The position numbers and the translations under genes were made by a program. From positions 7,318,001-7,382,000 of the forward strand of contig NZ_CP109137.1 of assembly GCF_035918095.1 (NCBI RefSeq): DNA of 64,000 nucleotides, written 5' to 3'. The stretch's first letter is position 1, and every line of letters starts with the position of its first letter. Of this stretch, positions 29,213 through 49,762 are shown piece by piece. The notes beneath the pieces are model-generated. The model saw only the letters and a list, made by a program, of their open reading frames with translations. It was not told where the DNA came from and ran no database searches. This stretch comes from Streptomyces sp. NBC_01750 (lineage in GTDB: Bacteria > Actinomycetota > Actinomycetes > Streptomycetales > Streptomycetaceae).

Positions 29213-30049
29213 TCAGGCGCCGTAGTCGAACGTCGCCGGGTCGGGGCCGAGCCGCTTGCCCTCGTCCAGCGCCGCGAACGCCGCCAGATCGTCGGCGTCC
29301 AGCTCGAAGCCGAAGATGTCGAAATTCTCCCGGATCCGGGACGGGGTCGCGGACTTGGGGATCGCGACAGTGCCGATCTGCAGATGCCAGCGCAACACCA
29401 CCTGGGCCGGCGTCCGGCCGTGCTTCTGCGCGATCGCGACGACCGTCGGGACCTCGAGGAGGCCCTTGCCCTGCCCCAGTGGCGACCAGGCCTCGGTCTT
29501 GATGCCGTGCTCCGCGTGGAAGGCGCGCGACTCGGCCTGCTGCAGCTGGGGGTGCAGCTCGATCTGGTTCACGGCCGGGACGATCGAGGTCTCGCCGATG
29601 AGGCGCTCGAGGTGCTCCGGGAGGAAGTTGGAGACGCCGATGGCCTTGGCGCGGCCGTCCGCGTAGATCTTCTCGAAGGCCTTGTACGTCTCCACATGGG
29701 CACCCTTGGACGGCACCGGCCAGTGGATCAGATACAGGTCGACGTAGTCGAGGCCGAGCTTGTCCAGCGAGGCGTCGAAGGCGCGCAGGGTCGAGTCGTG
29801 CCCCTGCTCGCTGTTCCAGAGCTTCGTGGTGATGAAGAGGTCCTCGCGGGCGATGCCGGAGGCGGCGACCGCACGGCCGGTGCCCTCTTCGTTCTCGTAG
29901 ATGGCCGCGGTGTCGATGCTGCGGTAGCCGGCCTCCAGAGCCGTGCCGACCACCTTCGCCGCCTCGTCGTCGGGCACCTGCCAGACACCGAAACCGAGCT
30001 GCGGCATCGCGACGCCATTGTTGAGGGAGATGGAGGGGACCTTGCTCAC
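29213..30049 (-). CDS. Aldo/keto reductase (AKR5-type)
   Basis: 278 aa. TIM-barrel NADPH-dependent reductase with the complete catalytic tetrad: SIDTAAIYENE (Asp, Tyr), FITTKLWNSEQG (Lys) and YLIHWPVP (His). The C-terminal NADPH signature IPKSATPSRIRENFDIF is present. The family reduces aldehydes, ketones or 2,5-diketo-D-gluconate. GTG 30049 is the start, preceded by AAGGAT; it gives the usual MSKVPSISLNNG beginning. Divergent from pqqA with 272 nt between, so a functional link to the PQQ/carbohydrate operon is possible but unproven. Confidence 0.92.
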   Translation of the reverse strand: MSKVPSISLNNGVAMPQLGFGVWQVPDDEAAKVVGTALEAGYRSIDTAAIYENEEGTGRAVAASGIAREDLFITTKLWNSEQGHDSTLRAFDASLDKLGLDYVDLYLIHWPVPSKGAHVETYKAFEKIYADGRAKAIGVSNFLPEHLERLIGETSIVPAVNQIELHPQLQQAESRAFHAEHGIKTEAWSPLGQGKGLLEVPTVVAIAQKHGRTPAQVVLRWHLQIGTVAIPKSATPSRIRENFDIFGFELDADDLAAFAALDEGKRLGPDPATFDYGA

Positions 30050-30267
30050 GAGCGGTCGATCCTTACGTCGTCGGTTGGTACTCCCATGCTCAACGACCAC
30101 CCTTGTGGAGGCATTCCCGACGCCGAAGTTGGCCTGATACAGCTCCGACCTTATCGGTCCGGACCATTGACCGCGTCCCATCAAGACGCAACTCTATGGC
30201 ACATAACTGAACGCCGGACACTCATGTGAACGGATGTTCAGTCCTGCTCAACCATGCGCTACGGAGC

Positions 30268-30289
30268 AATCACTCCTGAATCACTCCTG
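30268..30289 (+). repeat. Tandem 11-nt repeat upstream of pqqA
   Basis: Two back-to-back copies of AATCACTCCTG end 32 nt before the pqqA start. Their place in the leader or promoter zone makes a regulator-binding site plausible. The rest of the 272-nt gap to the aldo/keto reductase holds a TTGACC hexamer at 30167 that could be a -35 element, with no convincing -10. Confidence 0.45.
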
Positions 30290-30321
30290 ACCCCCACGTC
30301 TCAGGAAGGCAGGTACCGCAC

Positions 30322-30432
30322 ATGAAGGACACCAAGGAAACATCGGAGGAGACGGTCGACTGGCAGACTCCCGAGTTCGTGGTCGTCGAGACCGCGCTCG
30401 AAGTCACCGCCTACGCCCTCACCGACCGGTAG
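30322..30432 (+). CDS. pqqA: PqqA, PQQ precursor peptide
   Basis: 36-aa peptide. Its conserved C-terminal half reads WQTPEFVVVETALEVTAYA, matching the PqqA pattern W-x-x-P-x-F...LEVTxY. Glu27 and Tyr31 (E-V-T-A-Y spacing) are the residues that PqqE cross-links and that become the PQQ skeleton. The N-terminal leader is acidic (KETSEETVD), as in other PqqA peptides. AAGGCAGG lies about 8 nt before the ATG. It is followed 11 nt later by pqqB and is the first gene of the long operon. Confidence 0.9.
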   Translation: MKDTKETSEETVDWQTPEFVVVETALEVTAYALTDR

Positions 30433-30443
30433 ACCCCGCCGCC

Positions 30444-31340
30444 ATGCTGCTGCAGGTGCTCGGCACCGCGGCGGGCGGCGGACTGCCCCAGTGGAACTGT
30501 GCGTGTCCCGGCTGCGCCGGGGCACGCACACACCCGCACCGGCGCCGTCGTCACGCCTCACTCGCCCTGTGCGCGGACGAGGGCCGCTGGTATCTCGTCA
30601 ACGCCACCCCCGACATCGGTGACCAGATCGAGGACAGCCACGCGCTGCGGCCGGGGCCCGGGCCGCGCGAATCCCCCGTGGCCGGAGTGATCCTCACCGA
30701 CGCCGAACTCGACCACACGCTCGGCATCGCCCGGCTGCGCGAGGCCGACGGCTTCGACGTCCTCGCCACCCGGCCGGTACGGGACGCGCTGCTCGGCCCG
30801 CTGCGTCTGGGCGAGGTACTCGCCCCGTACACCCGTATCGAATGGCGCGAGTTGAGCCGCGAAGCGGAAGTGCTCGTCAAGGGCGGCACCGTGGAAATAG
30901 ATGCCGTACCCGTCTCGGCCAAAAGACCACGCTACGCCGCGGGTACCGGTACCGATGAGCCCACCTGGGTGGTCGCATTACGGCTGCGCGAGACCAGCAC
31001 CGGCCGCAGCCTGCTCTACGCGCCGGCGCTCGCCGGGTGGACCGACGACTTCCAGGACGCGGTCGAGCAGGCCGACTGCGTCATTCTCGACGGCACCTTC
31101 TGGGACGACGACGAGCCGGTACGGACCGGAATCTCGGCCAGGACGGCAACCGGAATGGGGCATCTGCCGATCGCCGGGCCGAACGGCACCGCACGGCGGC
31201 TCGCCGGGCTCGGCGCCCGCTGCCTCTATACCCACCTCAACAACACGAACCCCCTCGTGGAGCCGGACGCCCCGCAGCACGCGCTGCTCGGCGAATGGGG
31301 ACTCGAGGTTGCCGCCGACCGGATGGTGATCGAGCTGTGA
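30444..31340 (+). CDS. pqqB: PqqB, PQQ biosynthesis hydroxylase (metallo-beta-lactamase fold)
   Basis: 298 aa, full length. The start LLQVLGTAAGGGLPQWNCAC is the PqqB signature, with the CxCxxC zinc-binding cysteines (CACPGC). Next come VAGVILTDAELDHTLGI (metal-binding region), ILDGTFWDDDE, GMGHLPI and YTHLNNTNPL. PqqB acts as an iron-dependent hydroxylase on the peptide-derived tyrosine diol intermediate. Its stop overlaps the GTG of pqqC by 4 nt. Confidence 0.95.
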   Translation: MLLQVLGTAAGGGLPQWNCACPGCAGARTHPHRRRRHASLALCADEGRWYLVNATPDIGDQIEDSHALRPGPGPRESPVAGVILTDAELDHTLGIARLREADGFDVLATRPVRDALLGPLRLGEVLAPYTRIEWRELSREAEVLVKGGTVEIDAVPVSAKRPRYAAGTGTDEPTWVVALRLRETSTGRSLLYAPALAGWTDDFQDAVEQADCVILDGTFWDDDEPVRTGISARTATGMGHLPIAGPNGTARRLAGLGARCLYTHLNNTNPLVEPDAPQHALLGEWGLEVAADRMVIEL

Positions 31341-32125
31341 GAACAGTCGCTCTGCCCCCAACGGGATCAACGCAGTCAACACAAGCAGGGGGAGCAACGG
31401 CCGTAACAGGCACAACCGGAGCAGCGGAAGCCGGTGAGCCATGGAGTCCGGACGAGTTCACGGAGCGGCTGCGCGCCGTACCCGCCGAGCGCTACCACGA
31501 CCGCCACCCTTTCAACGTGCGCATGCACGAAGGCGCGCTCACCCCGGACGAGTTGCGGCGCTGGATCCTCAACCGCTTCCACTACCAGCGCCACATCCCC
31601 GTCAAGGACGCCCTGATCCTCGCCAAGTTCGACGACTCCGCGCTGCGGCGCTCCTGGCTGCGCCGGATTCAGGACCACGACGGGACGGTGGAGGGCGAGG
31701 GCGGCATCGAGCGCTGGCTGCGGCTGGGCGAGGCCGCCGGGATCGACCGGGCGCGGCTGGTGTCGGGCGCGGAAGTACTTCCGGGCGTACGGCTCGCGGT
31801 CGACGGATACGTCAACTTCTGCCGGCTGCGCCCGCCGCTCGAAGCCGTCGCCGCCTCGCTGACCGAACTCGCCGCGCCCGGCATCATGAGCACCCGTATC
31901 GCGGCCTTCGAACGCCACTACCGGTGGATCGAGGCCGACGGACTGATCTACTTCCGCAACCGCATCGGGCAGGGCAGCCGCGACAGTGCGGAAGCCCTCG
32001 AGCTGGTCCTCGCATGGGCCGGGACGCGGCAGGAGCAGGAGGCGGCCGTGGCCGCGCTCGCCTTCAAGTGCGAGGTCCTCTGGTCGCTGCTGGACGCCGT
32101 GGAACACGCGGGGGACCGGGCATGA
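31337..32125 (+). CDS. pqqC: PqqC, pyrroloquinoline-quinone synthase
   Basis: 262 aa. PqqC catalyses the final ring closure and eight-electron oxidation without a metal. Characteristic stretches: RYHDRHPFNVRMHEGALTP, RWILNRFHYQRHIPVKDA and YFRNRIGQGSRDS, plus an all-helical heme-oxygenase-like fold. It starts with GTG in a GTGA overlap with pqqB. The first ~38 residues form a low-complexity Thr/Gly/Ala extension (STQSTQAGGATAVTGTTGAA) not found in typical PqqC; the conserved part begins near EPWSPDEFTERL. It overlaps pqqD by ATGA. Confidence 0.95.
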   Translation: MRTVALPPTGSTQSTQAGGATAVTGTTGAAEAGEPWSPDEFTERLRAVPAERYHDRHPFNVRMHEGALTPDELRRWILNRFHYQRHIPVKDALILAKFDDSALRRSWLRRIQDHDGTVEGEGGIERWLRLGEAAGIDRARLVSGAEVLPGVRLAVDGYVNFCRLRPPLEAVAASLTELAAPGIMSTRIAAFERHYRWIEADGLIYFRNRIGQGSRDSAEALELVLAWAGTRQEQEAAVAALAFKCEVLWSLLDAVEHAGDRA

Positions 32126-32382
32126 GCGAAACCTGGAAACCGGTGCTCTCACGGTCGGTCGTCTTCCGGCACGACCGGGTGCGCGGCGCCGATCTGCTCA
32201 TACTGCCCGAGCGCGTGGTCGTCCTCCAGGGCAACGCCGGATCCATCGTGCGGCTCTGTGACGGTGCGCGCGATGTCGACGCGATCGTCGCGGAACTGGC
32301 CGGGCAGCACCCAGGCGCGCCCGTGGCCGACGAAGTGCCCGCGTTTCTCGGGCGGTTGCGCAAGGAGGGCTGGCTGAAGTGA
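32122..32382 (+). CDS. pqqD: PqqD, PqqA peptide chaperone
   Basis: 86 aa, the normal size. The RRE-type fold is seen in WKPVLSRSVVFRHDRVRGAD, LLILPERVVVLQGNAGSIVR, LCDGARDVDAIV and FLGRLRKEGWLK. PqqD binds the PqqA leader and presents it to PqqE. It overlaps both neighbours by 4 nt (ATGA with pqqC, GTGA with pqqE). Confidence 0.93.
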   Translation: MSETWKPVLSRSVVFRHDRVRGADLLILPERVVVLQGNAGSIVRLCDGARDVDAIVAELAGQHPGAPVADEVPAFLGRLRKEGWLK

Positions 32383-33560
32383 CGGCCGAGACACCTACTG
32401 AAGCAACGTCTGGAACAGCCGCTGAAACAACTGCTGAGGCAACCGCGGGAACGAGGGACGAGAAATCGGCGGGGGCCGATCCGCCGTGGGCACTGCTCGC
32501 CGAGCTCAGCCATGGCTGCCCGCTGCACTGCGCCTACTGCTCAAACCCCGTCGAACTGGTCAGTCGGTCAGAGGAGTTGACCGCGGTTCAGTGGGCCGAG
32601 GTGTTCCGGCAGGCCGCTGACCTGGGCGTCGTCCAGAGCCATCTCTCGGGAGGCGAACCGCTGCTGCGCCGCGATCTCACCGAGATCGTCGCCGCGGCCG
32701 ACGGCGCGGGCATCCATACACAGCTGGTCACCAGCGGCGTCGGGCTGCACGAGAAGCGGCTGGCGGCCCTGACGGCGGCCGGGCTCCGCAGCGTGCAGCT
32801 CTCCGTCCAGCACGCCGACCCGGTCGCCTCGGAACTCATCGCGGGAGCCCGGTCCTTCGCGGCGAAGGAGCGCGCCGCCCGGCTCGTACGGGAGGCGGAC
32901 CTGCCGCTCGGCCTCAACGTCGTACTCCACCGGGCCAACCTCGCGGCCCTCGACGACCTCGTCGAACTCGGGCTGGCCTGGGGCGCGGAGCGGATCGAGC
33001 TGGCCAACACCCAGTTCTACGGATGGGCCCTGCGCAACCGTGACGCCCTGCTGCCGGACCGCGAACAGATCGCCGCGGCCCGCGAGTCCGTCGAGCGGTG
33101 GCGCACACGGCTGGCCGGCCGGATGGACCTGATCTGGGTCGTGCCGGACTACGTCGACGGTACGGCCAAGCCCTGCATGGGCGGCTGGGGAGCGGTCTCA
33201 CTCACCGTTCAGCCGGACGGCACGGTCTATCCGTGCCCGGCTGCCGCCGCACTGCCCGATCTGGACGCGCCCAACGTCAAGGACCACCCCCTGGAGCGGA
33301 TCTGGCGCGAATCCAAGACCTTCAACATCTATCGCGGTGAGGAGTGGATGCAGGACCCGTGCCGCAGCTGCGAGCTGCGCACCAAGGACTTCGGCGGCTG
33401 CCGCTGCCAGGCGTACGCCCTCACCGGCTACGCCACCCGCACCGATCCGGCCTGCCATCTCTCGCCCGATCACGCGTTCGTACGCGACCTCGTCGACCGT
33501 CCGCGCATCCCCGGCGCCGTCGACGCCCCCACGTACACCTACCGCAAGGAAGGACCATGA
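32379..33560 (+). CDS. pqqE: PqqE, radical SAM PqqA Glu-Tyr cross-linking enzyme
   Basis: 393 aa. The radical SAM cluster CPLHCAYC gives Cys47, Cys51 and Cys54, followed by SGGEPLLRRDL. C-terminal SPASM cysteines: KPCMGGWG, YPCPAA, CRSCELRTKDFGGCRCQAY and DPACHLSP. It forms the C-C bond between Glu27 and Tyr31 of PqqA. Residues 1-33 are a Thr/Ala/Glu-rich low-complexity extension before the usual PPWALLAELSHGC. The stop TGA overlaps the ATG of a secreted GH105 enzyme (ATGA), so PQQ genes and the hydrolases are translationally coupled. Confidence 0.95.
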   Translation: MTAETPTEATSGTAAETTAEATAGTRDEKSAGADPPWALLAELSHGCPLHCAYCSNPVELVSRSEELTAVQWAEVFRQAADLGVVQSHLSGGEPLLRRDLTEIVAAADGAGIHTQLVTSGVGLHEKRLAALTAAGLRSVQLSVQHADPVASELIAGARSFAAKERAARLVREADLPLGLNVVLHRANLAALDDLVELGLAWGAERIELANTQFYGWALRNRDALLPDREQIAAARESVERWRTRLAGRMDLIWVVPDYVDGTAKPCMGGWGAVSLTVQPDGTVYPCPAAAALPDLDAPNVKDHPLERIWRESKTFNIYRGEEWMQDPCRSCELRTKDFGGCRCQAYALTGYATRTDPACHLSPDHAFVRDLVDRPRIPGAVDAPTYTYRKEGP

Positions 33561-35122
33561 AGCGACTAACGATTCTGCTGCTGGCGGCCACGCTCGCGGG
33601 CAGCACACTCGCCGCCGTGCCCGTGCCCGTGCCCGCGGCCGCGAATCCCGCGGCCCCCGCGGCGGCGCCCGTTCGGTACGAGGCCGAGGACGCCGCCATC
33701 AGCCTCGGTGCCGTCGAGAGCAACCACGCCGGATTCACCGGCTCCGGATTTGTCAACTATGAGCATGCGGCCGGCTCGCAGGTCGAATTCACGGTGGACT
33801 CCGCACAGAGCGGAAATGCCACGCTGGGCCTGAGATTCGCCAACGGGACATCCGCCGACCGGCCGCTCGACATCACTGTCAACGGCCAACTGATCGCCGA
33901 TGACCTCGCTTTTCCCGCCACCGGCAGCTGGACGGGCTGGCGGACCAAGAACCTCACGGCCGAGCTGAGGGCGGGGACCAACACCGTACGAGCATCCTCC
34001 GCCACCGCGTCCGGCGGCCCGAATCTCGACTCGCTCACCGTTGGCGACGACGGCTCCGCCGTCACGGACTGGTCGGTCGCGATGGTCGAGTCCACGATGG
34101 CGCGCTACTCCCCGAGCGCCGTCGGAGGCTGGTCCTACCCGGTCGGCCTGTATCTCTACGGCCAGTACCTCGTCTATCAGCGCACCCAGGACGCCCGCTA
34201 TCTCAACTACATCAAGAGTTATGTCGACCGCTTCGTCGACGGCAGCGGAAATATCGGACAGAGCTTCAACAACCTCGACAGCATGCAGGCCGGCAGGCTG
34301 CTGAACATCCTCCACCACGAAACGGGCCAGGCGCGCTACGAAAAAGCGGCACAGAAGATCCGGAACCGCCTGAACAGCTATCCGCGCACCGCGGACGGAG
34401 GATTCTGGCATTCGACTTCGGACTCCCGGCGCAGCCAACTGTGGGCCGACGGCGTCTACATGGTGAATCCGTTTCTCGTCGAGTACGGAAAGGAATTCGG
34501 CGACTCGACGTACACGGACAACGAGGCGACCAGGCAACTCGCCGTCTACGGCGGACGTCTGCAGGTGGCGAACGGACTGCTGAAGCACGCCTTCGACGAG
34601 TCGCGCGACGCGGGCTGGTCCGATCCGAAGACCGGTCTCGCGCCCGAGCACTGGTGCCGTGCGATCGGCTGGTACTCCATGGCGATCGTCAATGTCCTGG
34701 ACGCCGTACCGGCCGGCCATCCGCGCCGCGCCGAACTCCTACGCCTGCTGCAGAAGCTCGCTGCCGGTCTCGAGAAATACCAGGACCCGGCCACCGGCCG
34801 CTGGTTCCAGGTCGTCGACAAGGGCTCGCACAGCGACAACTGGACCGAGACCTCCTGTTCCAGCATGTTCACCTTTGCCCTTTCCCGCTCCGCGCAGCAG
34901 GGATATATCGACGCGCACTACGCGCAGGTGGCGCGGCGCGGCTATGAGGGCGTGCTGGCGAAGGTCGAACTCGGCGGCGACGGCCGCACCAATCTCACCG
35001 ACATTTCCATCGGGACGAATGTCGGGAACTACAGCTACTACATCAAGCGCGACCGCAAGACCAATGACTTCCACGGTCTCGGCGCCTTTCTCATCATGAA
35101 CGAACAACTCCGGGCGAGGTGA
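33557..35122 (+). CDS. Secreted CBM35 + GH105-like unsaturated uronyl hydrolase
   Basis: 521 aa. Sec signal peptide (LTILLLAATLAGSTLAAVPVP), a CBM35-like module (about 36-158, RYEAEDAAISLGAVESNHAG to LDSLTV) and an (alpha/alpha)6-barrel of the GH88/GH105 type (about 165-520). The barrel has SFNNLDSMQAGRLLN, SQLWADGVYMVNPFLVEYGK (catalytic Asp region), LAPEHWCRAIGWYSMAIV and the C-terminal TNVGNYSYYIKRDRKTNDFH. Family members hydrate unsaturated rhamnogalacturonyl or related lyase products; this one is exported, unlike most. It couples by ATGA to pqqE and is the first of six secreted enzymes. Confidence 0.88.
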   Translation: MKRLTILLLAATLAGSTLAAVPVPVPAAANPAAPAAAPVRYEAEDAAISLGAVESNHAGFTGSGFVNYEHAAGSQVEFTVDSAQSGNATLGLRFANGTSADRPLDITVNGQLIADDLAFPATGSWTGWRTKNLTAELRAGTNTVRASSATASGGPNLDSLTVGDDGSAVTDWSVAMVESTMARYSPSAVGGWSYPVGLYLYGQYLVYQRTQDARYLNYIKSYVDRFVDGSGNIGQSFNNLDSMQAGRLLNILHHETGQARYEKAAQKIRNRLNSYPRTADGGFWHSTSDSRRSQLWADGVYMVNPFLVEYGKEFGDSTYTDNEATRQLAVYGGRLQVANGLLKHAFDESRDAGWSDPKTGLAPEHWCRAIGWYSMAIVNVLDAVPAGHPRRAELLRLLQKLAAGLEKYQDPATGRWFQVVDKGSHSDNWTETSCSSMFTFALSRSAQQGYIDAHYAQVARRGYEGVLAKVELGGDGRTNLTDISIGTNVGNYSYYIKRDRKTNDFHGLGAFLIMNEQLRAR

Positions 35123-35127
35123 GGGAA

Positions 35128-35904
35128 ATGACCGCATCCCGAAGAGCGGTACTGGGCGCGGCACTCGGCGCTGCCGCGGCCGCGGGACTGCCCGCGACAG
35201 AGGCGAGCGCCGCAAGCTGGCAGCTGCGCTGGTCGCCTTCCGCGAGCAGCGACAAGCTCAAGGCCTTCGAGACGATCGAGGACGACCGGGCGGACTCCCA
35301 TCCGGCCGGCGCGCCGCACATCTTCGCCGAGGGCGACAACTTCCGGTTCAACATGCACACGGTGGACCGGGACACCAGCACCGACCGGCAGCGCCACGAG
35401 GTGACCGGCCTCCGCAACGGCAGCTCCTTCCTCCAGTGGAAGTCCGGCCAGACCTGGCGGGTCACGTACTCGATGTACATCCCGGGCACGCTGAGGGCGA
35501 CCACCAGCTTTACGCACATCATGCAGATGAAGCAGCCCGGCACGGGCTCCTCGCCGATCGTGGTGCAGTCGCTGCGCCGCGTGAACGGTGTGCAGACCAT
35601 CGAGCTCAAGGTCATCGAGGGCGATGTCCTGGTCGGCCGTACGAACCTCGAGCCACTGCACAACAAGTGGACCGACGTCGACTTCCAGATCAAGATCGGC
35701 AACGGCTCGTCCGGCTCCGTCCGCTGGATCCTCAGGAGCGGCGGCGCCACGGTTATCGACAAGTCGACGTCCGGCGTCGACACCTTCCTGGCGGACCGGG
35801 TGCGCCCCAAGTGGGGCATCTACCGCTCCCTGGGCGACAGTTCGGGCTCACTGCAGAACTGCCACATGCTCCTCACCAATATGCGCGGCTACCAGCTCGT
35901 CTGA
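35128..35904 (+). CDS. Secreted polysaccharide-lyase-like protein (heparin lyase I / PL20-like fold)
   Basis: 258 aa. Tat-type signal (SRRAVLGAALGAAAAAGLPA). The mature domain is a jelly-roll: APHIFAEGDNFRFNMHTVDR, DRQRHEVTGLRNGSSFLQWK, WRVTYSMYIPGTLRATTSFT, MKQPGTGSSPIVVQSL, PLHNKWTDVDFQIKIGNGSS and VRPKWGIYRSLGDSSG. This line-up (R/E/H in one strand, K/Y near the end) resembles secreted heparin lyase I-like or glucuronan-lyase-like proteins, but exact specificity is unclear. ATG 35128 has GAGG 8 nt upstream; a GTG at 35119 overlapping the previous stop is also possible. Within the PQQ-hydrolase operon. Confidence 0.7.
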   Translation: MTASRRAVLGAALGAAAAAGLPATEASAASWQLRWSPSASSDKLKAFETIEDDRADSHPAGAPHIFAEGDNFRFNMHTVDRDTSTDRQRHEVTGLRNGSSFLQWKSGQTWRVTYSMYIPGTLRATTSFTHIMQMKQPGTGSSPIVVQSLRRVNGVQTIELKVIEGDVLVGRTNLEPLHNKWTDVDFQIKIGNGSSGSVRWILRSGGATVIDKSTSGVDTFLADRVRPKWGIYRSLGDSSGSLQNCHMLLTNMRGYQLV

Positions 35905-35915
35905 GGAGGACGACC

Positions 35916-37856
35916 ATGAAGAGCTTACGGAGAACCGCCGCCACCGCCTTACTGGGCTTCGCGGTCGCCCTGGGTATCGCCCAGCCACCGGCGGGAGCCC
36001 AACCCGAAACGCCGCAGCCCGCGGTCGCGGCGGCACCCGCACCCGCCGCGGCCGAGTTCGACGTCCGTGACTACGGCGCGGTCGGCAACGGCTCCACCAA
36101 CGACACGTCGGCCATCAACAAGGCCATCACCGCCGCCAACACGGCAGGTGGCGGAGTCGTCCGATTCCCCCCGGGGACGTACGAGTCGAAGAACACCATC
36201 AGGATGAAGAGCAATGTCACCCTGCAGCTGGACGCCGGGTCGACGATCAGCGGCAACGCCGCCGACACCTATGACCCGCCCGAGTCCAACCAGTGGGACG
36301 ACTACCAGGACTACGGCCACAGCCACTTCCACAACGCCATGATCTACGGCGACAACCTCACCAACATCGGCTTCACCGGCTCCGGCGTCATCGACGGCGA
36401 CGGCGCGCTGATCACCGGCAACCCGAAGTCCGGCGAAGCCGACAAGATCATCTCGCTGACCCGTTGCAAGAACCTCACCCTCAGCGGGATCACGCTGCGC
36501 GAAGGCGGCCACTTCGCGGCGCTCCTCAACCACTGCGACAACGTCGTCTCCGACCGCCTCACCATCGACACGGCGATGGACCGCGACGGCTGGAACGTCA
36601 TCTCCACCACCAACGTCGAGATCACCAATGCCCAAATCGAGGCCAACGACGACGCGCTCGCCTTCAAGAGCGACTACGCGCTCGGCGCCAAGCTCAACAA
36701 CGGGCATGTCACCGTCACCGACTCCTATCTTTCCGCCGGCTGCTGCAACGCGCTGATGTTCGGCTCCGAGACCTGCGGCGACTTCACCGACTACAACTTC
36801 GAGCGGATCACCATCAAGGGGTCCGACAAGTCCGGCCTCGGCCTGGTCTCCATGGACGGCGCGAAGATATCCGACGTCCACTACAAGGACATCACCATGA
36901 CCGATGTCCGCTCGCCGATCCTGCAGAAGGTCGGTACGAGAAGACGGTGCGGGAACAACCCCGGCGTCGGCTCCATCAGCAACGTCACGTACACGAACAT
37001 CAGGGCGACAGGCACCACGCCGTCCTTCTCGCCGACCCTGTGGGGCGAGTCCGGCAGCGGCCGTATCCACGACATCACCTTCAGCGACGTCGACATCACC
37101 GTGCCCGGCGGCAGCGGCACCATGTCCGCCGAGCCGCCGAGCAACGACCCGAAGGACTACAACCCCAAGGCCATCGGTACCCGCCCGGCCTACGGCTGGT
37201 ACATCCGTAACGCCGACAACATCCGCTTCACCGACAGCGAGGTGCGGTTCGCCTCCAACGACGGCCGTCCCGCCGTCATCGCCAACAGCAGCACCGGCAT
37301 CCGCTTCGACCGCTTCACCGCCCAGCGCGGCAGCAGCAGCCCATCCGACCTGCTGTTCCAGACGGTCAACGGCTACTGCGTCGTGGGCGGCGCCAACACC
37401 GGCGGCGGTGCGCTGCGCGTGAGCCAGACCGGCTCCAGCCAGAACTGCGACGGCGGCGGCCCCGCGCCCACCGCCCGCTACGAGGCCGAGAACGCCACGT
37501 ACTCCGCGGGGTCGAGTGTCGACTCCGACCACACCGGCTACAGCGGCACAGGCTTCGTCAACACACCCAACGCGGCAGGCCCATATGTGGAGTGGACGGT
37601 GAACGCCACCACGGCGGGCACCACCGATCTCGCCCTCGCCTACGCCAACGGCACCACCACCGCCCGCCCGATGGACATCTCCGTCAACGGCGTCACCGTC
37701 GCGGCCGCATCGCCCTTCTCAGGCACCGGCGCCTGGACCACCTGGCGCACTCTCACCCTGCCCGTCGCGCTCAAGGCGGGCACCAACACCGTCCGCGCCA
37801 CCGCCACCAGCGCCAACGGCGCACCCAACATCGACTATCTGGACGGCCCGGCATGA
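35916..37856 (+). CDS. Secreted GH28-like beta-helix pectinase with C-terminal CBM35
   Basis: 646 aa. Signal peptide (TALLGFAVALGIAQPPAGA), then a right-handed beta-helix (about 48-510): EFDVRDYGAVGNGSTNDTSA, AGSTISGNAADTY, GSGVIDGDGALI, the catalytic region EANDDALAFKSDYALG (adjacent Asp pair), CCNALMFGSETCGDF and ISDVHYKDITM. These match GH28 polygalacturonase/rhamnogalacturonase-type enzymes. The last ~125 residues are a CBM35-like module (RYEAENATYSAGSSVDSDHT to NIDYLDG). A strong GAGGAGG site precedes the ATG. The stop overlaps the next gene's start (ATGA). Confidence 0.88.
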   Translation: MKSLRRTAATALLGFAVALGIAQPPAGAQPETPQPAVAAAPAPAAAEFDVRDYGAVGNGSTNDTSAINKAITAANTAGGGVVRFPPGTYESKNTIRMKSNVTLQLDAGSTISGNAADTYDPPESNQWDDYQDYGHSHFHNAMIYGDNLTNIGFTGSGVIDGDGALITGNPKSGEADKIISLTRCKNLTLSGITLREGGHFAALLNHCDNVVSDRLTIDTAMDRDGWNVISTTNVEITNAQIEANDDALAFKSDYALGAKLNNGHVTVTDSYLSAGCCNALMFGSETCGDFTDYNFERITIKGSDKSGLGLVSMDGAKISDVHYKDITMTDVRSPILQKVGTRRRCGNNPGVGSISNVTYTNIRATGTTPSFSPTLWGESGSGRIHDITFSDVDITVPGGSGTMSAEPPSNDPKDYNPKAIGTRPAYGWYIRNADNIRFTDSEVRFASNDGRPAVIANSSTGIRFDRFTAQRGSSSPSDLLFQTVNGYCVVGGANTGGGALRVSQTGSSQNCDGGGPAPTARYEAENATYSAGSSVDSDHTGYSGTGFVNTPNAAGPYVEWTVNATTAGTTDLALAYANGTTTARPMDISVNGVTVAAASPFSGTGAWTTWRTLTLPVALKAGTNTVRATATSANGAPNIDYLDGPA

Positions 37857-40030
37857 CCGGACGCCTCTGGGCGCGGCTGGTGCTGGTGGGCGCGCTGCTG
37901 CTCGGCGCGCTCACCCTGCCGGGACCCGCCAGCGCCGATCTCCAACACCCGCGCCAGGACTTCCTGCGCTCTTCCGTCGGCGGACTCTTCCTGCACTGGG
38001 GCCAGCGGACCGCCCCGTCACACAACAGCTGCAGCCAGTGGGAGACCGATGTCACGGGCGGCGGCTGGACACCTGACTACTGGGTCCAGGAAGCGCAGAA
38101 GCTGCACACCCAGTATCTGGTGCTCGCCACCTTCCACAGCCGCCTCGGCTACGCCCGCCCCTGGCCGTCCAAGATCCCCGGAAGCTGCAGCACCAAGCGG
38201 GATTTCCTCGGCGAGCTGATCACCGCTGCCAAGGCCAAGGGCCTCAAGACGATCCTGTACATGACCGACGACCCGCAGTGGCACAACGAGGGCGGCCATG
38301 AGTGGCTCGACTCGGCGGCGTACTCGAAATACAAGGGCAAGTCCGTCGATCTGACCGGCCGGGACGGCTTCGGGGAGTTCAGCTACGACAACTTCTTCGA
38401 GGTCATGGACCGCTATCCCGAGCTCGGCGGCTTCTGGATCGACAACGACAACGCGTACTGGGAGAGCCACAACCTCTACGCGCAGGTGTACCAGAAACGC
38501 CCGGGCTACACGATCAGCAACAACAACGAAGACACGACGATCATGGACATGATCAGCAATGAGCAGAAGACCGGGATGAGCCCGTCCTACGACTACCCGC
38601 AGGCCGTCTACACCGCGGCGCCACGGCTCACCGAGGCCGACTTCAAGCTCCCCTCCACCGGCTCCTGGTGGTACACCGGCTCCGATCCGGCGGTCGACCG
38701 CAAACTCACTCTCGGCCGGCTCATCACCAACGCCGGATCGTCGGTGAAGGCGCTGATGGCCGAGACCGCCATGGTCAACGGCAAACTCCCCGCCAACCAG
38801 GTCGCGTTCAACACCTTCGCCAAGGGCTATCTCGACGCCATCGGTGAATCGGTGCACGGCACCGAGGGCGGCGGGTACATGTACGGCGGCCTCGCGCCCG
38901 GGTTCTGGAACGACGGCGCGCACGGCGTCACCACCGTCAGCAGGACCGACCCCGACAGGCATTACATCCATGTCCTGACCCCGCCGACCTCCTCGACCCT
39001 GCGGCTGCGGGACAACGGCTACCGGGTGACCGGGGTGACCAACCTCCGTACCGGCGCGCCCATCGCGTACAGCCAGAGCGGCGGCACGCTCAGCCTCACC
39101 GGGCTCGGCGGCTGGGACGCGTACGACACCGTCCTCAAGGTCACCACCGGCGGCCGCGAAGGGATCATCCCCGCCTCCTCGTACACGATGAGCGCGGGCG
39201 CATCGGTGAGTGGGCACGGCGCCGCAGCCGCGGCGGACGGCGACTACCGCACCTACTGGGACAGCGACAAGACCACCCCCGTCTCGCTGAGCTTCGACCT
39301 CGGCGCGGCGAAGCGGGTGCAGTACCTCGGCGTCAACCAGCGTGAGGACTCGGTGAGTTACGTACGCTCCAGCACCGAACAGTCCGCGCGGATCAGGGAC
39401 TACCGGGTGTATGTCAGCAGCGACCGCACCAACTGGGGGAGCCCGGTGAAGACCGGAACCCTGCCCAGCCGGCGCGGCGTCGCCGTCATCGACATTCCCG
39501 CGACATCCACCCGCCATGTCCGGCTCGAAGTCGTCAACACCCATGCGGCATCGAGCGATTCGGCTCGCTTCAAGCGGCTGCGGATCGACGAGGCATGGAT
39601 CGGAAGTACTTACGCCGCCGGTGGCGGCACCACTCCGACCCCGAACCGCTACGAGGCCGAGGACGCGACCCGCTCCGCGGGCTCGACGGTCGACTCGGAT
39701 CACACCGGCTACACCGGAACCGGCTTCGTCAACACACCCAACGCGGTCGGCGCCTTTGTGGAGTGGACGGTCGAATCGGCGACGGCACACACCGCGTCGA
39801 TCGCGATCCGCCACGCCAACGGCTCCACCGCGGGACGCCCGATGGACGTCGCCGTGAACGGCACGGTCGTCTCCGCGAACCGGGCCTTCAACGGCACGGG
39901 CGCCTGGACCACCTGGGCCGATTCGACCCTCACCGTCCCGCTGACCGCCGGAGCCAACTCCGTACGCGTCACCGCCACCACCGCGAACGGCGCACCCAAC
40001 CTCGACCACCTCGATGTGGAGGCGCCATGA
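37853..40030 (+). CDS. Secreted GH29-like alpha-L-fucosidase with F5/8C and CBM35 modules
   Basis: 725 aa. Signal peptide (LVLVGALLLGALTLPGPASA), then a GH29-like TIM barrel (about 40-385): SVGGLFLHWGQRTAPSHNSC, EAQKLHTQYLVLATFHSRLG, KAKGLKTILYMTDDPQWHNE and YPELGGFWIDNDNAYWES (nucleophile Asp region). A discoidin/CBM32-like domain follows (about 440-580, ADGDYRTYWDSDKTTPVSLS, HVRLEVVNTH), then CBM35 (about 600-723). Expected to release L-fucose or a related 6-deoxy sugar from polysaccharide; the barrel is divergent, so specificity is uncertain. Coupled by ATGA on both sides. Confidence 0.85.
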   Translation: MTGRLWARLVLVGALLLGALTLPGPASADLQHPRQDFLRSSVGGLFLHWGQRTAPSHNSCSQWETDVTGGGWTPDYWVQEAQKLHTQYLVLATFHSRLGYARPWPSKIPGSCSTKRDFLGELITAAKAKGLKTILYMTDDPQWHNEGGHEWLDSAAYSKYKGKSVDLTGRDGFGEFSYDNFFEVMDRYPELGGFWIDNDNAYWESHNLYAQVYQKRPGYTISNNNEDTTIMDMISNEQKTGMSPSYDYPQAVYTAAPRLTEADFKLPSTGSWWYTGSDPAVDRKLTLGRLITNAGSSVKALMAETAMVNGKLPANQVAFNTFAKGYLDAIGESVHGTEGGGYMYGGLAPGFWNDGAHGVTTVSRTDPDRHYIHVLTPPTSSTLRLRDNGYRVTGVTNLRTGAPIAYSQSGGTLSLTGLGGWDAYDTVLKVTTGGREGIIPASSYTMSAGASVSGHGAAAAADGDYRTYWDSDKTTPVSLSFDLGAAKRVQYLGVNQREDSVSYVRSSTEQSARIRDYRVYVSSDRTNWGSPVKTGTLPSRRGVAVIDIPATSTRHVRLEVVNTHAASSDSARFKRLRIDEAWIGSTYAAGGGTTPTPNRYEAEDATRSAGSTVDSDHTGYTGTGFVNTPNAVGAFVEWTVESATAHTASIAIRHANGSTAGRPMDVAVNGTVVSANRAFNGTGAWTTWADSTLTVPLTAGANSVRVTATTANGAPNLDHLDVEAP

Positions 40031-41754
40031 GTCGTCCGAGAACCATCCTCCTCGCGGCGCTCGCGCTGCTCCTCGCGGCGGCCGGACCGACCGCGGTCCC
40101 GTCACCCGCCGCCGCATCCGACAACGGTCTCTCCCTGCGGCCCGCCATGGGCTGGTCCAGCTGGAGCTTCGTACGCCGTCAGCCCACCGAGGCCAAACTG
40201 AAGGCCCAGGCCGACGCCCTGGTCAGCAGCGGTCTCCAGGACCACGGCTACGTCTACATCAACCTCGACGACTTCTACCAGAAGTGCGACGCAGGCGGCT
40301 TCACGGTCGACCAGTACGGGCGCTGGGCCGTCGACGAGGCGAAATTCCCCTCCGGCATCAAGGCCCTGGCCGACTTCATCCACTCCAAGGGGCTGAAGTT
40401 CGGCTTCTACGTCACCCCCGGCATCGCCAAGAACGCCGTCACCAGGAACACGCCGATCGAAGGGACCTCGTACCACGCCAAGGACATCGCCGACACGTCC
40501 AAGCAGGAGAAGAACTACAACTGCAAGAACATGTACTACATCGACTACAGCAAGCCAGGCTCCCAGGAATTCGTGAATTCATGGGCCCGCCAGTTCGCTT
40601 CCTGGGGAGTCGACTACCTCAAGATCGACGGCGTGGGCAGCCATGACATCCCCGACGTCCGCGCCTGGGACAAGGCATTGCGCGCCTCCGGCCGTTCCAT
40701 CAACTACGCCCTCTCCAACAACCTCGCCATCGCCGACGCACCCACCTGGCGACAGCTCGCCAACAGCTGGCGCACCCAGGGCGACGTCGAGTGCTACTGC
40801 GGTCCCGGGCCCAACGGCAGCGGCTTCCCGCTCACCACCTGGGACAAGGTGGCCACTCGCTTCAACTCCGCCGCGAGCTGGCAGCAGTACGCGGGACCCG
40901 GCGGCTGGAACGACCTCGACTCGCTGGAGATAGGCAACGGCGACCAGGTCGGGCTCAACGCGGACCAGCGGCGCTCGCAGATGACCCTGTGGGCGATGGC
41001 CGCGTCCCCGCTGCTGCTCGGAACCGACCTCACCGCGCTCACCGCCACCGACAAGGCGATGCTGACGAACGACCGGCTGATTGCGGTCGACCAGGACGGC
41101 GTCGCGGCCAGACGGATCGTCAACTCCGGTTCCCAGCAGGTCTGGAGCAAGCGGGAGGCAGTCGGCGACTACATCGTCGCCCTCTTCAACACCGGGACGT
41201 CGGGCAACCAGACCGTCAGCGTGAACTGGTCGCAGGTCGGCTTCCCCGGAGCCGCCGCCGTCACCGACCTCTGGTCGGGCGGGAGCGGCCCAGTGGTGAG
41301 CGGCTCCTACAGCGCGACGCTGCGGCCGGGGGAGACCCGGCTGATCCGGGCCACCCCGCAATCGAGCACCGCTGTGCGGTACGAGGCCGAGAACGCCTCG
41401 TACAGCGCGGGGTCGACCGTCGACAGCGATCACGGCGGCTTCAGCGGCAGCGGATTCGTGAACACGCCGAATGCGGCCGGGGCGTACGTGGAGTGGACGG
41501 TCGAATCGGCGACCGCCGAAGACACCTCGATCGCGATCAGGTACGCCAACGGCACCGCCGCGGGACGCCCGATGGACGTCGCCGTCAACGGCGCTGTCGT
41601 CTCGGCCGGCCGCGCCTTCAACGGCACCGGCTCCTGGACCACCTGGGCCGACGCCACCCTCACCGTCCCGCTCAAGGCGGGTTCGAACACCGTACGCGTC
41701 ACCGCCACGACGGCCAACGGCGCACCCAATCTCGACTACCTCGACAGGGGATGA
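40027..41754 (+). CDS. Secreted GH27 alpha-galactosidase with C-terminal CBM35
   Basis: 575 aa. Signal peptide (ILLAALALLLAAAGPTAVPS) and a GH27 catalytic barrel: RPAMGWSSWSFV, YVYINLDDFYQK, FGFYVTPGIAKN, DYLKIDGVGSHD (nucleophile Asp about 201) and GGWNDLDSLEIGNG (acid/base Asp about 297), then the antiparallel C-domain ending PGETRLIRATP. CBM35 at about 451-573. Family GH27 removes terminal alpha-galactosyl (or beta-L-arabinopyranosyl) residues. Coupled by ATGA to both neighbours. Confidence 0.92.
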   Translation: MSRPRTILLAALALLLAAAGPTAVPSPAAASDNGLSLRPAMGWSSWSFVRRQPTEAKLKAQADALVSSGLQDHGYVYINLDDFYQKCDAGGFTVDQYGRWAVDEAKFPSGIKALADFIHSKGLKFGFYVTPGIAKNAVTRNTPIEGTSYHAKDIADTSKQEKNYNCKNMYYIDYSKPGSQEFVNSWARQFASWGVDYLKIDGVGSHDIPDVRAWDKALRASGRSINYALSNNLAIADAPTWRQLANSWRTQGDVECYCGPGPNGSGFPLTTWDKVATRFNSAASWQQYAGPGGWNDLDSLEIGNGDQVGLNADQRRSQMTLWAMAASPLLLGTDLTALTATDKAMLTNDRLIAVDQDGVAARRIVNSGSQQVWSKREAVGDYIVALFNTGTSGNQTVSVNWSQVGFPGAAAVTDLWSGGSGPVVSGSYSATLRPGETRLIRATPQSSTAVRYEAENASYSAGSTVDSDHGGFSGSGFVNTPNAAGAYVEWTVESATAEDTSIAIRYANGTAAGRPMDVAVNGAVVSAGRAFNGTGSWTTWADATLTVPLKAGSNTVRVTATTANGAPNLDYLDRG

Positions 41755-42818
41755 CAACCGTGCGACCCCCCACCACACCGCTCCGTAAGTCCGCGCTCGG
41801 CGCGGGGCTCTTCGGGCTGCTCTGCTCACCGCTGCTCGCGGCCCTCCCGGCCGCCGGCGCGGCCCCGGAAGCGCCCGACGCGACAGCGGCCCCCAAGGCA
41901 CCGGGCGCGATGGCCGCGGCCCCGTACGAATACCTCGGCTGGGGCAGTCCCCAGAAGCCCACCGACGTCATGGCCGCCACCGGCGTGAAGTGGTTCACGC
42001 TCGCCTTCATCCTCTCCGACGGCGGCTGCAACCCGAAGTGGGACGGCAGCCGCGCCCTCAAGGGCGGCTCCGACGAGTCGGCCATCAAGTCCATCCGCGC
42101 CGCAGGCGGCGACATCGTCGTCTCCGTCGGCGGCTGGAGCGGCGCGAAGCTCGGCGAGAAGTGCTCCAGTGCCTCGGCGCTTGCCGGCGCCTACCAGAAG
42201 GTGATCGACGCCTACAAGCTCAAGGCCTTCGACATCGACATCGAGAACACCGAGTTCGGCAACGCGACCGTCCGGCAGCGGGTGGTCGACGCGCTGAAGA
42301 TCGTCGAGCAGAAGAACCCGGGCATCGTCACCTATATCACCATGGGCACCACCCCCAACGGCCCGGACGCCACCGGCAAGGACCTGATCAAGCGCGGGGC
42401 CAATGCGGGTCTGGCCGCCGACGCCTGGGTGGTCATGCCCTTCGACTTCGGCGGGCACAGCGGCACCATGGGCCAGGCTTCGGTCGGCGCCCTGGAAGGC
42501 CTCAAGAACTCGGTCAAGAGCGCCTACGGCTACGGCGACTCCGTCGCCAGCGCCTACGGCTACGGCGACTCCGTCGCTTACCAGCACATCGGCGTCTCGT
42601 CGATGAACGGCAGGACCGATGAGGCCGGCGAGACCGTCACCCAGGGCGACTTCAAGACGATCCTCAACTACGCCAAGCAGCACCACATCGCGCGTTATGC
42701 CTTCTGGTCGGTCAACCGCGACCGCAGCTGCGGCTCCGGCGGCGACGCGGACGCCTGCAGCGGCGTCTCCCAGTCCCCTTACGCCTACACCAAGATCGTG
42801 GCCCAGTACGGCGGCTGA
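41751..42818 (+). CDS. Secreted GH18 chitinase-like protein
   Basis: 355 aa. Signal peptide, then a GH18 TIM barrel: YEYLGWGSPQKPTDVMAATG, IVVSVGGWSGAKLGEKCSS (SxGG motif) and the catalytic DxDxE as FDIDIENTEFG (Glu about 164). It ends KQHHIARYAFWSVNRDR with a Cys pair. No carbohydrate-binding module is attached, unlike its neighbours. A 10-residue tandem duplication (SAYGYGDSVA twice) lies between barrel strands. Last enzyme of the PQQ-hydrolase operon; a single-domain form like this could act on chitin, peptidoglycan-like or other GlcNAc polymers. Confidence 0.9.
   Translation: MTTVRPPTTPLRKSALGAGLFGLLCSPLLAALPAAGAAPEAPDATAAPKAPGAMAAAPYEYLGWGSPQKPTDVMAATGVKWFTLAFILSDGGCNPKWDGSRALKGGSDESAIKSIRAAGGDIVVSVGGWSGAKLGEKCSSASALAGAYQKVIDAYKLKAFDIDIENTEFGNATVRQRVVDALKIVEQKNPGIVTYITMGTTPNGPDATGKDLIKRGANAGLAADAWVVMPFDFGGHSGTMGQASVGALEGLKNSVKSAYGYGDSVASAYGYGDSVAYQHIGVSSMNGRTDEAGETVTQGDFKTILNYAKQHHIARYAFWSVNRDRSCGSGGDADACSGVSQSPYAYTKIVAQYGG
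42519..42578 (+). repeat. 30-bp exact tandem duplication inside the GH18 gene
   Basis: Two consecutive 30-nt copies (42519-42548 and 42549-42578) differ only at the last base and encode SAYGYGDSVA twice. The insertion keeps the frame. Near-identity indicates a very recent slippage event (or an assembly artefact). Confidence 0.9.
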
Positions 42819-42861
42819 CCCCCGCACAACAGCACCCCCCCAACCCCCCACGGAGGAACAC

Positions 42862-43089
42862 ATGCGACGCAGGCCCTCAGTCAGCACGGCGGCGGTGGCG
42901 GGCGCGGCGGCGCTCGTCGCCGGTCTCGTCCAGCCGGCCAACGCAGGTGAGCCGAAGGACGCCGGCGCGGCGGGCGCGCCGACCGCCATCACAACCATCT
43001 CCAACGGCTGGACGATCCCGTGGGGCACCTCCTGGCTGCCCGACGGCTCCACCGCCCTGGTCACCGTCTTCCGGGTGACGATCGGCTAG
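42862..43089 (+). pseudogene. PQQ-dependent sugar dehydrogenase (sorbosone/sGDH type), internally deleted remnant
   Basis: 75 codons with a strong ribosome site (GGAGGA). The signal peptide (STAAVAGAAALVAGLVQPAN) and the opening of a GSDH-type beta-propeller (ISNGWTIPWGTSWLPDGSTA, compare the family pattern GLxxPWGxxFLPDG) are present. After ALVT the sequence jumps to VFRVTIG and a stop, which looks like the family's own C-terminal strand. A large in-frame deletion of the catalytic propeller, including the PQQ and calcium ligands, fits best. It lies 43 nt after the GH18 gene in the pqq operon, where the PQQ-using enzyme would be expected. Family recognition is by pattern only. Confidence 0.6.
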
Positions 43090-43108
43090 CCGGCCCTTCG
43101 GGAGGCGG

Positions 43109-43144
43109 CTGCCCGGCGCGGGACTCATGCCCTGCGCCGGGCAG
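43109..43144. terminator. Hairpin ending the pqq-glycosidase operon
   Basis: CTGCCCGGCGC and GCGCCGGGCAG (11-bp stem, 14-nt loop) begin 19 nt after the last stop codon of the plus-strand operon. It probably also serves the convergent minus-strand molybdenum hydroxylase operon. Confidence 0.65.
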
Positions 43145-43184
43145 ACATCGCGGCGAGGTCAGAGGCCGCTGCTCGTCGGGGTTC

Positions 43185-43701
43185 GGGGCTGTACGCGACA
43201 CGCCGGCCTCGAACACGCTGACCCGTGAACTGCCGGGCTGGCAGCCGACCCACCCCGGGCTCCTCGACGACCTCGACAACGGCCACCACTCATGGCTCAT
43301 GCGGCGCTGCCAGTCGAGAAAGTCGTCGACGTGGTTCGGGTGGACTCGGTGGGTGACCACAACGGTCACCAGCGGATCCGTTGATTGCGTGCCGCCGCTG
43401 ACAACCTGCTGGGTTGCGGGGCCGTCAAAATACTTGCTCCCCACATCGAGAAACCTCTGCTGGTTGCGCTGTTGATCCACACTTGCAGATGGGCTATCGA
43501 GTCGAACCGGTACACGACGACCCAGTCGGGTTGCCGGGGTGTCGGCGGGGAGATCTCGGCGCCGAGGTACCCGGCGTAGTCGGCGGCAGCGGCGTTGACG
43601 TCCTCCTGCCACGTTTCGTACTCCCGCTCCAGCCCGGGCAGAACCTTCCGTCCGATGATTGCCGTTGCCGCGGCGTCTTCGCGCTCTTCGGTGGTGGTCA
43701 T
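43185..43701 (-). pseudogene. ABM-domain (antibiotic biosynthesis monooxygenase-like) gene, frameshifted
   Basis: It starts at ATG 43701, overlapping the stop of the molybdenum hydroxylase gene (ATGA). The first frame reads ATAIIGRKVLPGLEREYETWQ to HLQVWINSAT, an ABM ferredoxin-like fold. Similarity then moves to another frame: QQRFLDVGSKYFDGPATQQ, then VTVVVTHRVHPNHVDDFLDW, the second ABM repeat of a tandem-ABM protein. The shift lies near 43462 and the end past 43290 is also degraded. Two-ABM proteins of this type accompany oxidoreductases in degradation or secondary-metabolism operons. Probably inactive. Confidence 0.65.
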
Positions 43702-49556: not shown

Positions 49557-49762
49557 TGGCCTGCTCCTTGTGGCGCTCCGCACAGCGCCGTGACGCTACC
49601 CCACGCCGCCGCCGGGCGGGAGAGCCTCGTGGAAGTGTGGACGAATGGCATCACCACAGGTCAGCCACAGATATCCAGCCACAACAGGGAAGGCCCGGGC
49701 GCGGTTCTGACCTCGGAGTCAGATGCCCGCGCCCGAATCTCCACCGAATCTGTACGGTGCGC

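Follow-up and report, generated by a model that had tools for sequence, protein, structure and literature searches.

The pqqABCDE genes of the window, which is the whole 64,000-nucleotide stretch of Streptomyces sp. NBC_01750 DNA that was analysed, are directly followed by six genes for glycan-degrading proteins of exported type and by the remnant of a GSDH sugar-dehydrogenase gene. We consider it probable (about 0.6) that these genes form an operon for hydrolytic-plus-oxidative glycan degradation by secreted enzymes, one that also provides the redox cofactor PQQ for a GSDH-type dehydrogenase. No published description of the pqq-hydrolase association, or of pqq genes, exported glycosidases and a GSDH in one operon, was found in the titles and abstracts searched with the terms used. 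The features are as follows.

29213..30049, - strand: divergent aldo-keto reductase, 2,5-diketogluconate-reductase-like, the left border of the chromosomal slot (PF00248, 2.1e-53; PDB 3wbw, 1mzr)
30156..30198, + strand: promoter-like element upstream of pqqA, GGTCCGGACCATTGACC - 17 nt - AACTCTATG (exact copy at 30156)
30322..30432, + strand: pqqA, 36 aa with E-V-T-A-Y (TIGR02107, 25.8 bits, cut-off 20)
30444..31340, + strand: pqqB (TIGR02108, 356 bits, cut-off 245)
31337..32125, + strand: pqqC, GTG start, later starts possible (TIGR02111, 286.8 bits, cut-off 240)
32122..32382, + strand: pqqD (TIGR03859, 65.1 bits, cut-off 46)
32379..33560, + strand: pqqE (TIGR02109, 480.6 bits, cut-off 381.35)
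33557..35122, + strand: CBM35 and GH88/GH105 unsaturated-uronyl-hydrolase-like protein (PF07470, 9.3e-88; PF16990; PDB YteR 1nc5, 2.2e-77)
35119..35904, + strand: putative PF14099 polysaccharide lyase (29.9 bits, right at the cut-off), start possibly ATG 35128
35916..37856, + strand: GH28 and CBM35 (PF00295, 9.6e-26; PF16990)
37853..40030, + strand: GH29, F5/8 type C and CBM35 (PF01120, 1e-10; PF00754; PF16990; PDB alpha-L-fucosidase 9eu4, 5e-6)
40027..41754, + strand: GH27 and CBM35 (PF16499, 1.3e-41; PDB matches to alpha-galactosidases and beta-L-arabinopyranosidases)
41751..42818, + strand: GH18 chitinase-like protein (PDB exochitinase 9buf, 4.8e-43; PF00704 sub-threshold, 20.9 against 29.6 bits)
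42862..43089, + strand: GSDH remnant, 75 aa, with an internal deletion (aligned to the intact 367-aa gene of the genome G285)
47733..49583, - strand: acyl-CoA-synthetase-like gene, which in relatives borders the slot on the right (PF00501, 4.8e-71); it comes after the GSDH gene in G285

The first-pass annotation had described pqqA to pqqE as complete, and all five exceeded their NCBIfam equivalog cut-offs within one cluster, from which PQQ production is predicted. The PqqA translation contains EVTAY, an instance of the E-x3-Y motif known for its role in this peptide. The six reading frames 3' of pqqE are all open and matched CAZyme families, in keeping with the earlier description of six exported glycan-degrading proteins, and their secretion is likewise predicted; the first belongs by sequence match (PF07470, YteR) to the GH105/GH88 unsaturated uronyl hydrolases. 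None of the operon's twelve genes was recognised as a transporter or regulator gene, so the operon falls outside the strict definition of a polysaccharide utilisation locus. No LPMO partner was recognised in the operon, while three AA10 genes lie elsewhere in the genome. RNA families and tRNAs were not found in the window. Most of the series aligned to the independent genome G285 with 87% DNA identity over 10.4 kb, and the arrangement was found in many Streptomyces. It is therefore neither unique to this genome nor a misassembly, the two possibilities that had been raised against it.

Nearly all junctions were said to be 4-nt overlaps. ATGA or GTGA overlaps of this length occur at 8 of 11 junctions, pqqE/GH105, pqqB/C, pqqC/D and pqqD/E among them, if the lyase starts at GTG 35119; the gene caller picks ATG 35128, with which one overlap would become a short gap. 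The other three junctions are spaced by +11 nt (pqqA/B), +11 nt (lyase/GH28) and +43 nt (GH18/remnant). The 4-nt pqqE/GH88 overlap was also found in 15 of the 24 loci with GH88 directly after pqqE. With up to four substitutions, the promoter-like element lies upstream of 31 of 32 pqq-bearing and 15 of 15 pqq-less loci, compared to a mean of 0.55 of 47 in shuffled controls. A separate promoter or a terminator at 33557 had been named as evidence that would break the series; generic scans of 30000-43300 found no promoter-like site and no terminator-like site on the + strand. The pqq and hydrolase genes are probably read as a single transcript.

In the proposed mechanism, a promoter upstream of pqqA would drive PQQ synthesis and the export of the lyase and several CBM35-bearing glycosidases, and in the intact form of the operon a GSDH-type sugar dehydrogenase would be exported too. 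The lyase and hydrolases would open a uronic-acid-containing heteroglycan, and, outside the cell, the PQQ-loaded dehydrogenase would convert the freed sugars, or the ends of chains, into lactones or aldonic acids by oxidation. We infer the substrate, product and benefit of this system from the sequence.

The lyase gave no match in a PDB sequence search, and its fold was therefore predicted (pLDDT 77.7). Among the 50 VIA-align matches listed, the model was closest to a fungal glucuronan lyase (Trichoderma reesei 2zzj, PL20); pectate and rhamnogalacturonan lyases were absent from those 50, which excludes nothing. This resemblance hints at Mucoromycota walls rather than pectin. A tentative extension of the main reading is that Streptomyces directs an oxidative-plus-hydrolytic attack at fungal glycans rich in uronic acids (Mucoromycota glucuronan containing fucose and galactose, along with chitin and chitosan). 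PQQ would then be a shareable extracellular cofactor, made at the head of the operon in some species and, in the repeated losers of pqq, taken from neighbours for a CBM35-bearing dehydrogenase.

The same mechanism could possibly act on plant pectin (rhamnogalacturonan), with GH105, GH28 and GH27 working on the fragments and the PQQ enzyme oxidising the freed sugars. The GH105 protein resembles YteR, a rhamnogalacturonan enzyme, GH28 is a pectinase family, and GH27 is present. However, the modelled lyase resembles a glucuronan lyase, the GH18 here and the GH8 in relatives' loci would be odd for pectin, and the GH28 active-site words are DRDGWN and NDDA in place of the usual NTDG and DD. The pectin/galactan-type specificity proposed in the first-pass annotation is thus one option, not an established property. 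CBM35 was rejected as proof of a substrate because the CsxA CBM35 is reported to bind its producer's own wall polysaccharide (Montanier 2009, as cited in a passage of PMC11002231).

The last gene had been read as a PQQ-dehydrogenase-like remnant. It is a remnant, but its identity was corrected to an internally deleted PF07995 GSDH: the first ~72 residues of the sugar dehydrogenase are followed by its apparent last ~7. The central part is deleted, and the ORF at 42862-43089 has no Pfam match and no complete beta-propeller with the catalytic His and Arg. A GSDH gene is held by 26 of the 31 pqq-bearing copies of the window's slot and lies near pqq in 65 of 100 loci, with L124, L128, L131 and L134 scored as lacking one that sits just beyond the fetched stretches. 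Intact operonic forms have about 360 aa or a CBM35-fn3-fn3-GSDH architecture of about 680 aa, and intact relatives matched PF07995 at 3.4e-70, 3das at 2.4e-90 and 1c9u at 5.3e-33. The longer architecture was confirmed in both long GSDHs scanned; long forms were assigned CBM35 by length and tree position, with Pfam checks of L119, L130 and this genome's own copy. CBM35 is thus common to the hydrolases and to some relatives' GSDH. A dehydrogenase working outside the cell beside the hydrolases, as had been proposed, fits these relatives but not the operon of this genome.

The GSDH tree comprised 65 rows (those at at least 59% and two own-genome copies). The sGDH-equivalent His144 was found in 46/46 close pqq-linked copies, and Arg228 and Asn229 in 45/46 (one gap); all three were kept in 17/17 pqq-less copies, and His144 in 24/26 distant copies. 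Intact relatives thus combine PF07995 with the three residues of a GSDH-type PQQ sugar dehydrogenase. In a universal Streptomyces GSDH type, which is also found without pqq, the copy of this genome has these three residues too, and the residues alone are therefore no proof of PQQ use. PQQ dependence of the GSDH-type dehydrogenases is a prediction from these matches.

With no intact dehydrogenase in its operon, this genome most likely employs its PQQ in a distant 980-aa CBM35x2-fn3x2-GSDH at about 4.977 Mb, the likeliest client. Distant CBM35-GSDH genes were found in 8 of 392 Streptomyces, all 8 with pqqE; in one of them (G030) the pqq locus also lacks a GSDH. The genome has further GSDH matches. 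The match at 6257613 is of the near-universal Streptomyces type (382/392 genomes), and that at 7390336 is a ThuA/3-keto-disaccharide-hydrolase protein with a GSDH domain. The match at 7499048 is a putative GSDH; the protein scanned there, an adjoining one of 734 aa, has no GSDH domain. For a PQQ alcohol dehydrogenase as the client, this genome has five PF01011 matches, all short and weak (best E 1.3e-8). AA12 membership was rejected: the TrAA12 model PF22807 had 0 matches in this genome and did not match the GSDHs of L115, L116, L119 and L012 (E up to 0.01).

A close GSDH without pqq was found in 21 genomes, so PQQ synthesis is not required to keep the GSDH. Loci were fetched from 17 of these (all except G120, G294, G353 and G357). 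The pqq block is cleanly absent from its place between GH88 and the upstream region in common, and 6 of 15 pqq-less loci retain a pqqA scar (control: two-base blocks permuted, 40 shuffles). L203 and L204 (G344, G354), with partial pqqE matches, were treated as pqq-bearing on the tree. The shared upstream element and the scars indicate repeated loss of pqq from loci that kept their hydrolases and GSDH. This favours a single transcription unit and suggests that PQQ can be supplied from outside the cell.

These losses also speak for the rather unlikely explanation that the PQQ branch is being lost in this genome as well, with no dedicated client and pqq persisting only by preceding useful hydrolases. 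The GSDH remnant and decay elsewhere in the slot (a fragmentary GH18 in G285, short ORFs in L005) are consistent with it, as is a pqqA dN/dS of 0.86 against the sister, over only 36 codons. Against it, pqqA to pqqE are open and above their cut-offs, dN/dS of pqqB-E against G285 is 0.11-0.24, although most of that history is older than the GSDH deletion, and the genome carries a distant CBM35-GSDH, a type seen only in pqqE-bearing genomes.

The neighbourhood of pqq was surveyed in 108 distinct loci (3 duplicates removed), 100 of them with pqqE of at least 60% and 90 of those with enough flank; the gene caller, a simple one based on codon bias and trained with the window, merged or split some genes. 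The aldo-keto reductase was in the same position at 30 of the 90. Within 10 genes of pqq, at least two hydrolases were found in 35 of the 100 loci, one in 8 and none in 57. The association recurs at S. violaceusniger-type loci, where the genes have a second arrangement, and in Amycolatopsis, alongside pqq genes of a distant lineage; a proposed search of other actinomycetes was meant to reveal such cases. Across 392 genomes, a close GSDH was present in 50 of 72 with window-type pqqE and 22 of 320 without (odds ratio 31); 10 of the 22 pqqE genomes without a close GSDH lack even a distant non-universal one. The statement that PQQ clusters go with dehydrogenases and not hydrolases is misleading, since the window-type cluster is accompanied by both. 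That pqq and the hydrolases merely share a promoter region in an operon-collecting slot, with no functional link, would suit the 57 loci and the hydrolase-GSDH operons without pqq, but is improbable given the second arrangement, the Amycolatopsis lineage, the 4-nt overlaps, the shared CBM35 and the GSDH co-occurrence.

The main reading, a hydrolytic-plus-oxidative operon with its own cofactor, would link the breakdown of extracellular glycans by Streptomyces to the synthesis of a redox cofactor, and is proposed as a functional counterpart, in bacteria, of the AA12 strategy of fungi. The sister loci that lack pqq, with their shared upstream element and their pqqA scars, amount to deletion experiments made by nature. 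Whether PQQ synthesis serves a CBM-targeted secreted dehydrogenase, and whether PQQ is a public good among soil bacteria, become testable questions. Enzymes that could be assayed are the operonic GSDH in its intact form, the distant CBM35-GSDH and the lyase.

Known pqqABCDE operons with quinoprotein dehydrogenases share the five pqq genes and, in most relatives, a nearby PQQ-type dehydrogenase gene, but here pqqE is separated from the dehydrogenase by exported glycosidases and a lyase, all in a single series of overlapping genes. Soluble GSDH-family aldose/glucose dehydrogenases (PDB 3das, 3a9g, 2ism, 1c9u) share PF07995 and the His144/Arg228 equivalents with the intact relatives, whereas the window-type GSDH is operon-borne with glycosidases and, in some relatives, carries CBM35 and fn3 as fused domains. 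The PL20 lyase of T. reesei is the nearest listed match of the window lyase model, for which glucuronan beta-elimination is only predicted. The fungal AA12 PQQ pyranose dehydrogenases (CcPDH, TrAA12) offer a secreted PQQ sugar dehydrogenase beside glycosidases, as predicted here; CcPDH is reported to carry a CBM1 (PMC5960967), and an AA12 enzyme to be retained where the organism itself makes no PQQ (PMC6881810). In contrast to these, the present system is bacterial, has CBM35 and not CBM1, is tied to PQQ synthesis genes and gave no PF22807 match in its own genome or the four GSDHs scanned.

The first-pass annotation described pqq genes followed by six glycan-degrading proteins, joined mostly by 4-nt overlaps, and this was confirmed at 8 of the 11 junctions of the series. 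The window spans C1:7318001-7382000 of an 8.98-Mb genome, assigned to Streptomyces from its nearest named relatives, and the operon opens with the following feature.

30322-33560, + strand: pqqABCDE, all five genes above NCBIfam cut-offs

After pqqE, on the same strand, come CBM35+GH88/GH105, a PF14099 lyase, GH28+CBM35, GH29+F5/8C+CBM35, GH27+CBM35 and GH18; CBM35 is thus present in four of the six hydrolytic proteins. Generic scans of 30000-43300 turned up neither a promoter-like site nor a + strand terminator-like site. The GH18 gene carries a 30-bp unit in tandem duplicate (42519-42578), or 10 extra residues, and this unit is single in the three relatives whose sequence was inspected.

The last ORF, annotated as a PQQ-dehydrogenase-like remnant, is indeed what is left of a sugar dehydrogenase (GSDH, PF07995), with an internal stretch missing compared to the intact gene of G285. 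This genome, the closest by pqqE among 392 (89% identity; locus L115), has the same operon but with a 367-aa PF07995 GSDH where the window has the remnant. Aligned with that copy, the remnant keeps the first ~72 residues and apparently the last ~7 and, therefore, the equivalents of His144 and Arg228 of soluble glucose dehydrogenase (sGDH) are gone. Its protein cluster has two members on two contigs, one of which belongs to this genome. The GH18 of G285 is a 52-codon fragment, a different loss from the window's. Between the two genomes, dN/dS was 0.11-0.24 for pqqB-E, 0.17-0.28 for five hydrolytic genes and 0.86 for pqqA, on 36 codons. A molybdopterin dehydrogenase gene pair (43698-47248, - strand; 2Fe-2S plus MoCo, 908 aa, and FAD, 275 aa) lies between the remnant and the acyl-CoA synthetase, and G285 lacks it at that place. 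A three-gene set near pqq in Amycolatopsis locus L082 resembles this pair by eye.

Genes were called in 108 distinct pqqE loci, of which 100 had pqqE at ≥60% and 90 of these had enough flank to be counted for the chromosomal slot. The arrangement could have been unique to one genome; instead, the slot arrangement recurs in relatives, at 30 of the 90 loci. Its order is a divergent aldo-keto reductase, the pqq operon, hydrolases with GSDH and, usually, an acyl-CoA synthetase as the end. GSDH was present in 25 of the 30, plus L125 after its stretch was extended, and was not seen in slot loci L005, L014, L120 and L032, the last of which ends early; counting the window's remnant copy among 31 slot copies, 26 have a GSDH gene. 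Among the 100 loci, 65 had GSDH within 10 genes of pqqE and seven had a PQQ alcohol dehydrogenase in its place. At least two of seven tallied hydrolase/lyase families occurred in 35, one in eight and none in 57. The pqqE/GH88 4-nt overlap was found in 15 of the 24 loci where both adjoin. GSDH follows pqqE, without a hydrolase, in L008, L116 and L122. In S. violaceusniger-type loci, members of the same families lie ahead of pqqA in a different order, and GH28 and GH88 relatives adjoin pqqCDEB in Amycolatopsis saalfeldensis (L082, pqqE 53%). The pqq and glycan-degrading operon is, therefore, real and recurrent.

Several loci vary in other ways. By gene calls, pqqB is apparently missing from L118, L119, L125, L135, L140 and L153, where a single pqqB/C-group gene of pqqC size lies between pqqA and pqqD. 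L119:8611-14094 encodes one 1827-aa protein joining the GH28, GH29, F5/8C and GH27 domains, which are in separate genes in the window, and L140 has a protein of similar length. In L136, L143, L144, L160 and L161, GSDH lies upstream of the pqq operon; the genes just after the operon are presumably ribosomal protein genes, and L136 and L143 also have, upstream, a gene that we take to be EF-Tu-like.

Across the 392 Streptomyces genomes, pqqE was found in 89, a close GSDH (≥59%) in 72 and both in 51. Window-type pqqE occurred in 72 genomes, 50 with and 22 without a close GSDH (odds ratio 31). A close GSDH without pqqE was found in 21 genomes, and pqqC was detected in 0 of these 21, while both positive controls were found. 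Of the 17 pqq-less loci fetched, 16 carry a hydrolase-GSDH operon lacking pqq; the aldo-keto reductase is visible in 15 of these, and the remaining locus, L202, has only GSDH. Pqq-less L187 matches L135 at 88% over 11.7 kb, and the pqq block is absent right before GH88. Allowing ≤4 substitutions, the promoter-like element GGTCCGGACCATTGACC, ahead of pqqA in the window (30156), is present in the upstream regions of 31 of 32 pqq-bearing loci and of all 15 pqq-less ones (shuffled regions: mean 0.55 of 47, maximum 2). Pieces of pqqA scored above 40 shuffles in six of the 15 pqq-less regions (L195, L196, L197, L198, L201 and, by a narrow margin of 34 vs 28, L199) and were not found above shuffles in the other nine. 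The GSDH tree shows eight changes of pqq status (7-9 in bootstraps, at least four forced), and all 17 pqq-less rows belong to one clade of 32 long GSDHs. The common element, the pqqA pieces, the L187/L135 gap and the tree show repeated loss of pqq, after which the hydrolases and GSDH stayed in place behind the shared upstream region. Six pairwise comparisons of pqq-less GSDHs gave dN/dS values of 0.12-0.29. L203 and L204 (in G344 and G354), where GSDH lies beside partial pqqE matches only, look like ongoing pqq decay.

Both long operonic GSDHs scanned (L119, L130) have a CBM35-fn3-fn3-GSDH architecture, sharing the CBM type of the window's four tagged hydrolytic proteins. A protein with a related domain series is encoded elsewhere in the window's own genome.

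L175:8631-11573: CBM35x2-fn3x2-GSDH-PBP protein, 980 aa

This distant protein is the likeliest candidate for a PQQ client in that genome, judging from sequence. Its C-terminal domain is a phosphatidylethanolamine-binding protein (PF01161, 2.2e-20), an unusual domain to find fused to a sugar dehydrogenase. For the GSDH+PBP part, eight of the 392 genomes have a match (E ≤1e-170; in G030 and G213 it covers the GSDH part alone), and all eight have pqqE (p = 5e-6 ignoring relatedness, several being close kin). One of them, G030, has a pqq locus (L014) without GSDH.

According to PMC6881810, His144, Arg228 and Asn229 have roles in sGDH. Of 46 close pqq-linked GSDHs, all keep the His144 equivalent and 45 keep those of Arg228 and Asn229, with one gap; among the 26 more distant GSDHs, 24 keep the His144 equivalent. 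All three are kept in 17 of 17 GSDHs of pqq-less genomes. The own-genome copy of a near-universal Streptomyces GSDH type also keeps them and, thus, residue conservation is no proof of PQQ use. PQQ scavenging has a precedent in fungi and E. coli: PMC6881810 describes PQQ enzymes in these non-makers of PQQ, and PMC5960967 reports a Kd of 1.1 nM for the fungal PQQ enzyme.

None of the papers listed by literature searches, judged on title and abstract, describes the pqq-hydrolase association. With function predicted throughout, the operon would act as a bacterial counterpart of the strategy of AA12, the fungal secreted PQQ pyranose dehydrogenases (CcPDH, TrAA12); the strategy would be alike, but the window-type system is not AA12 by family.
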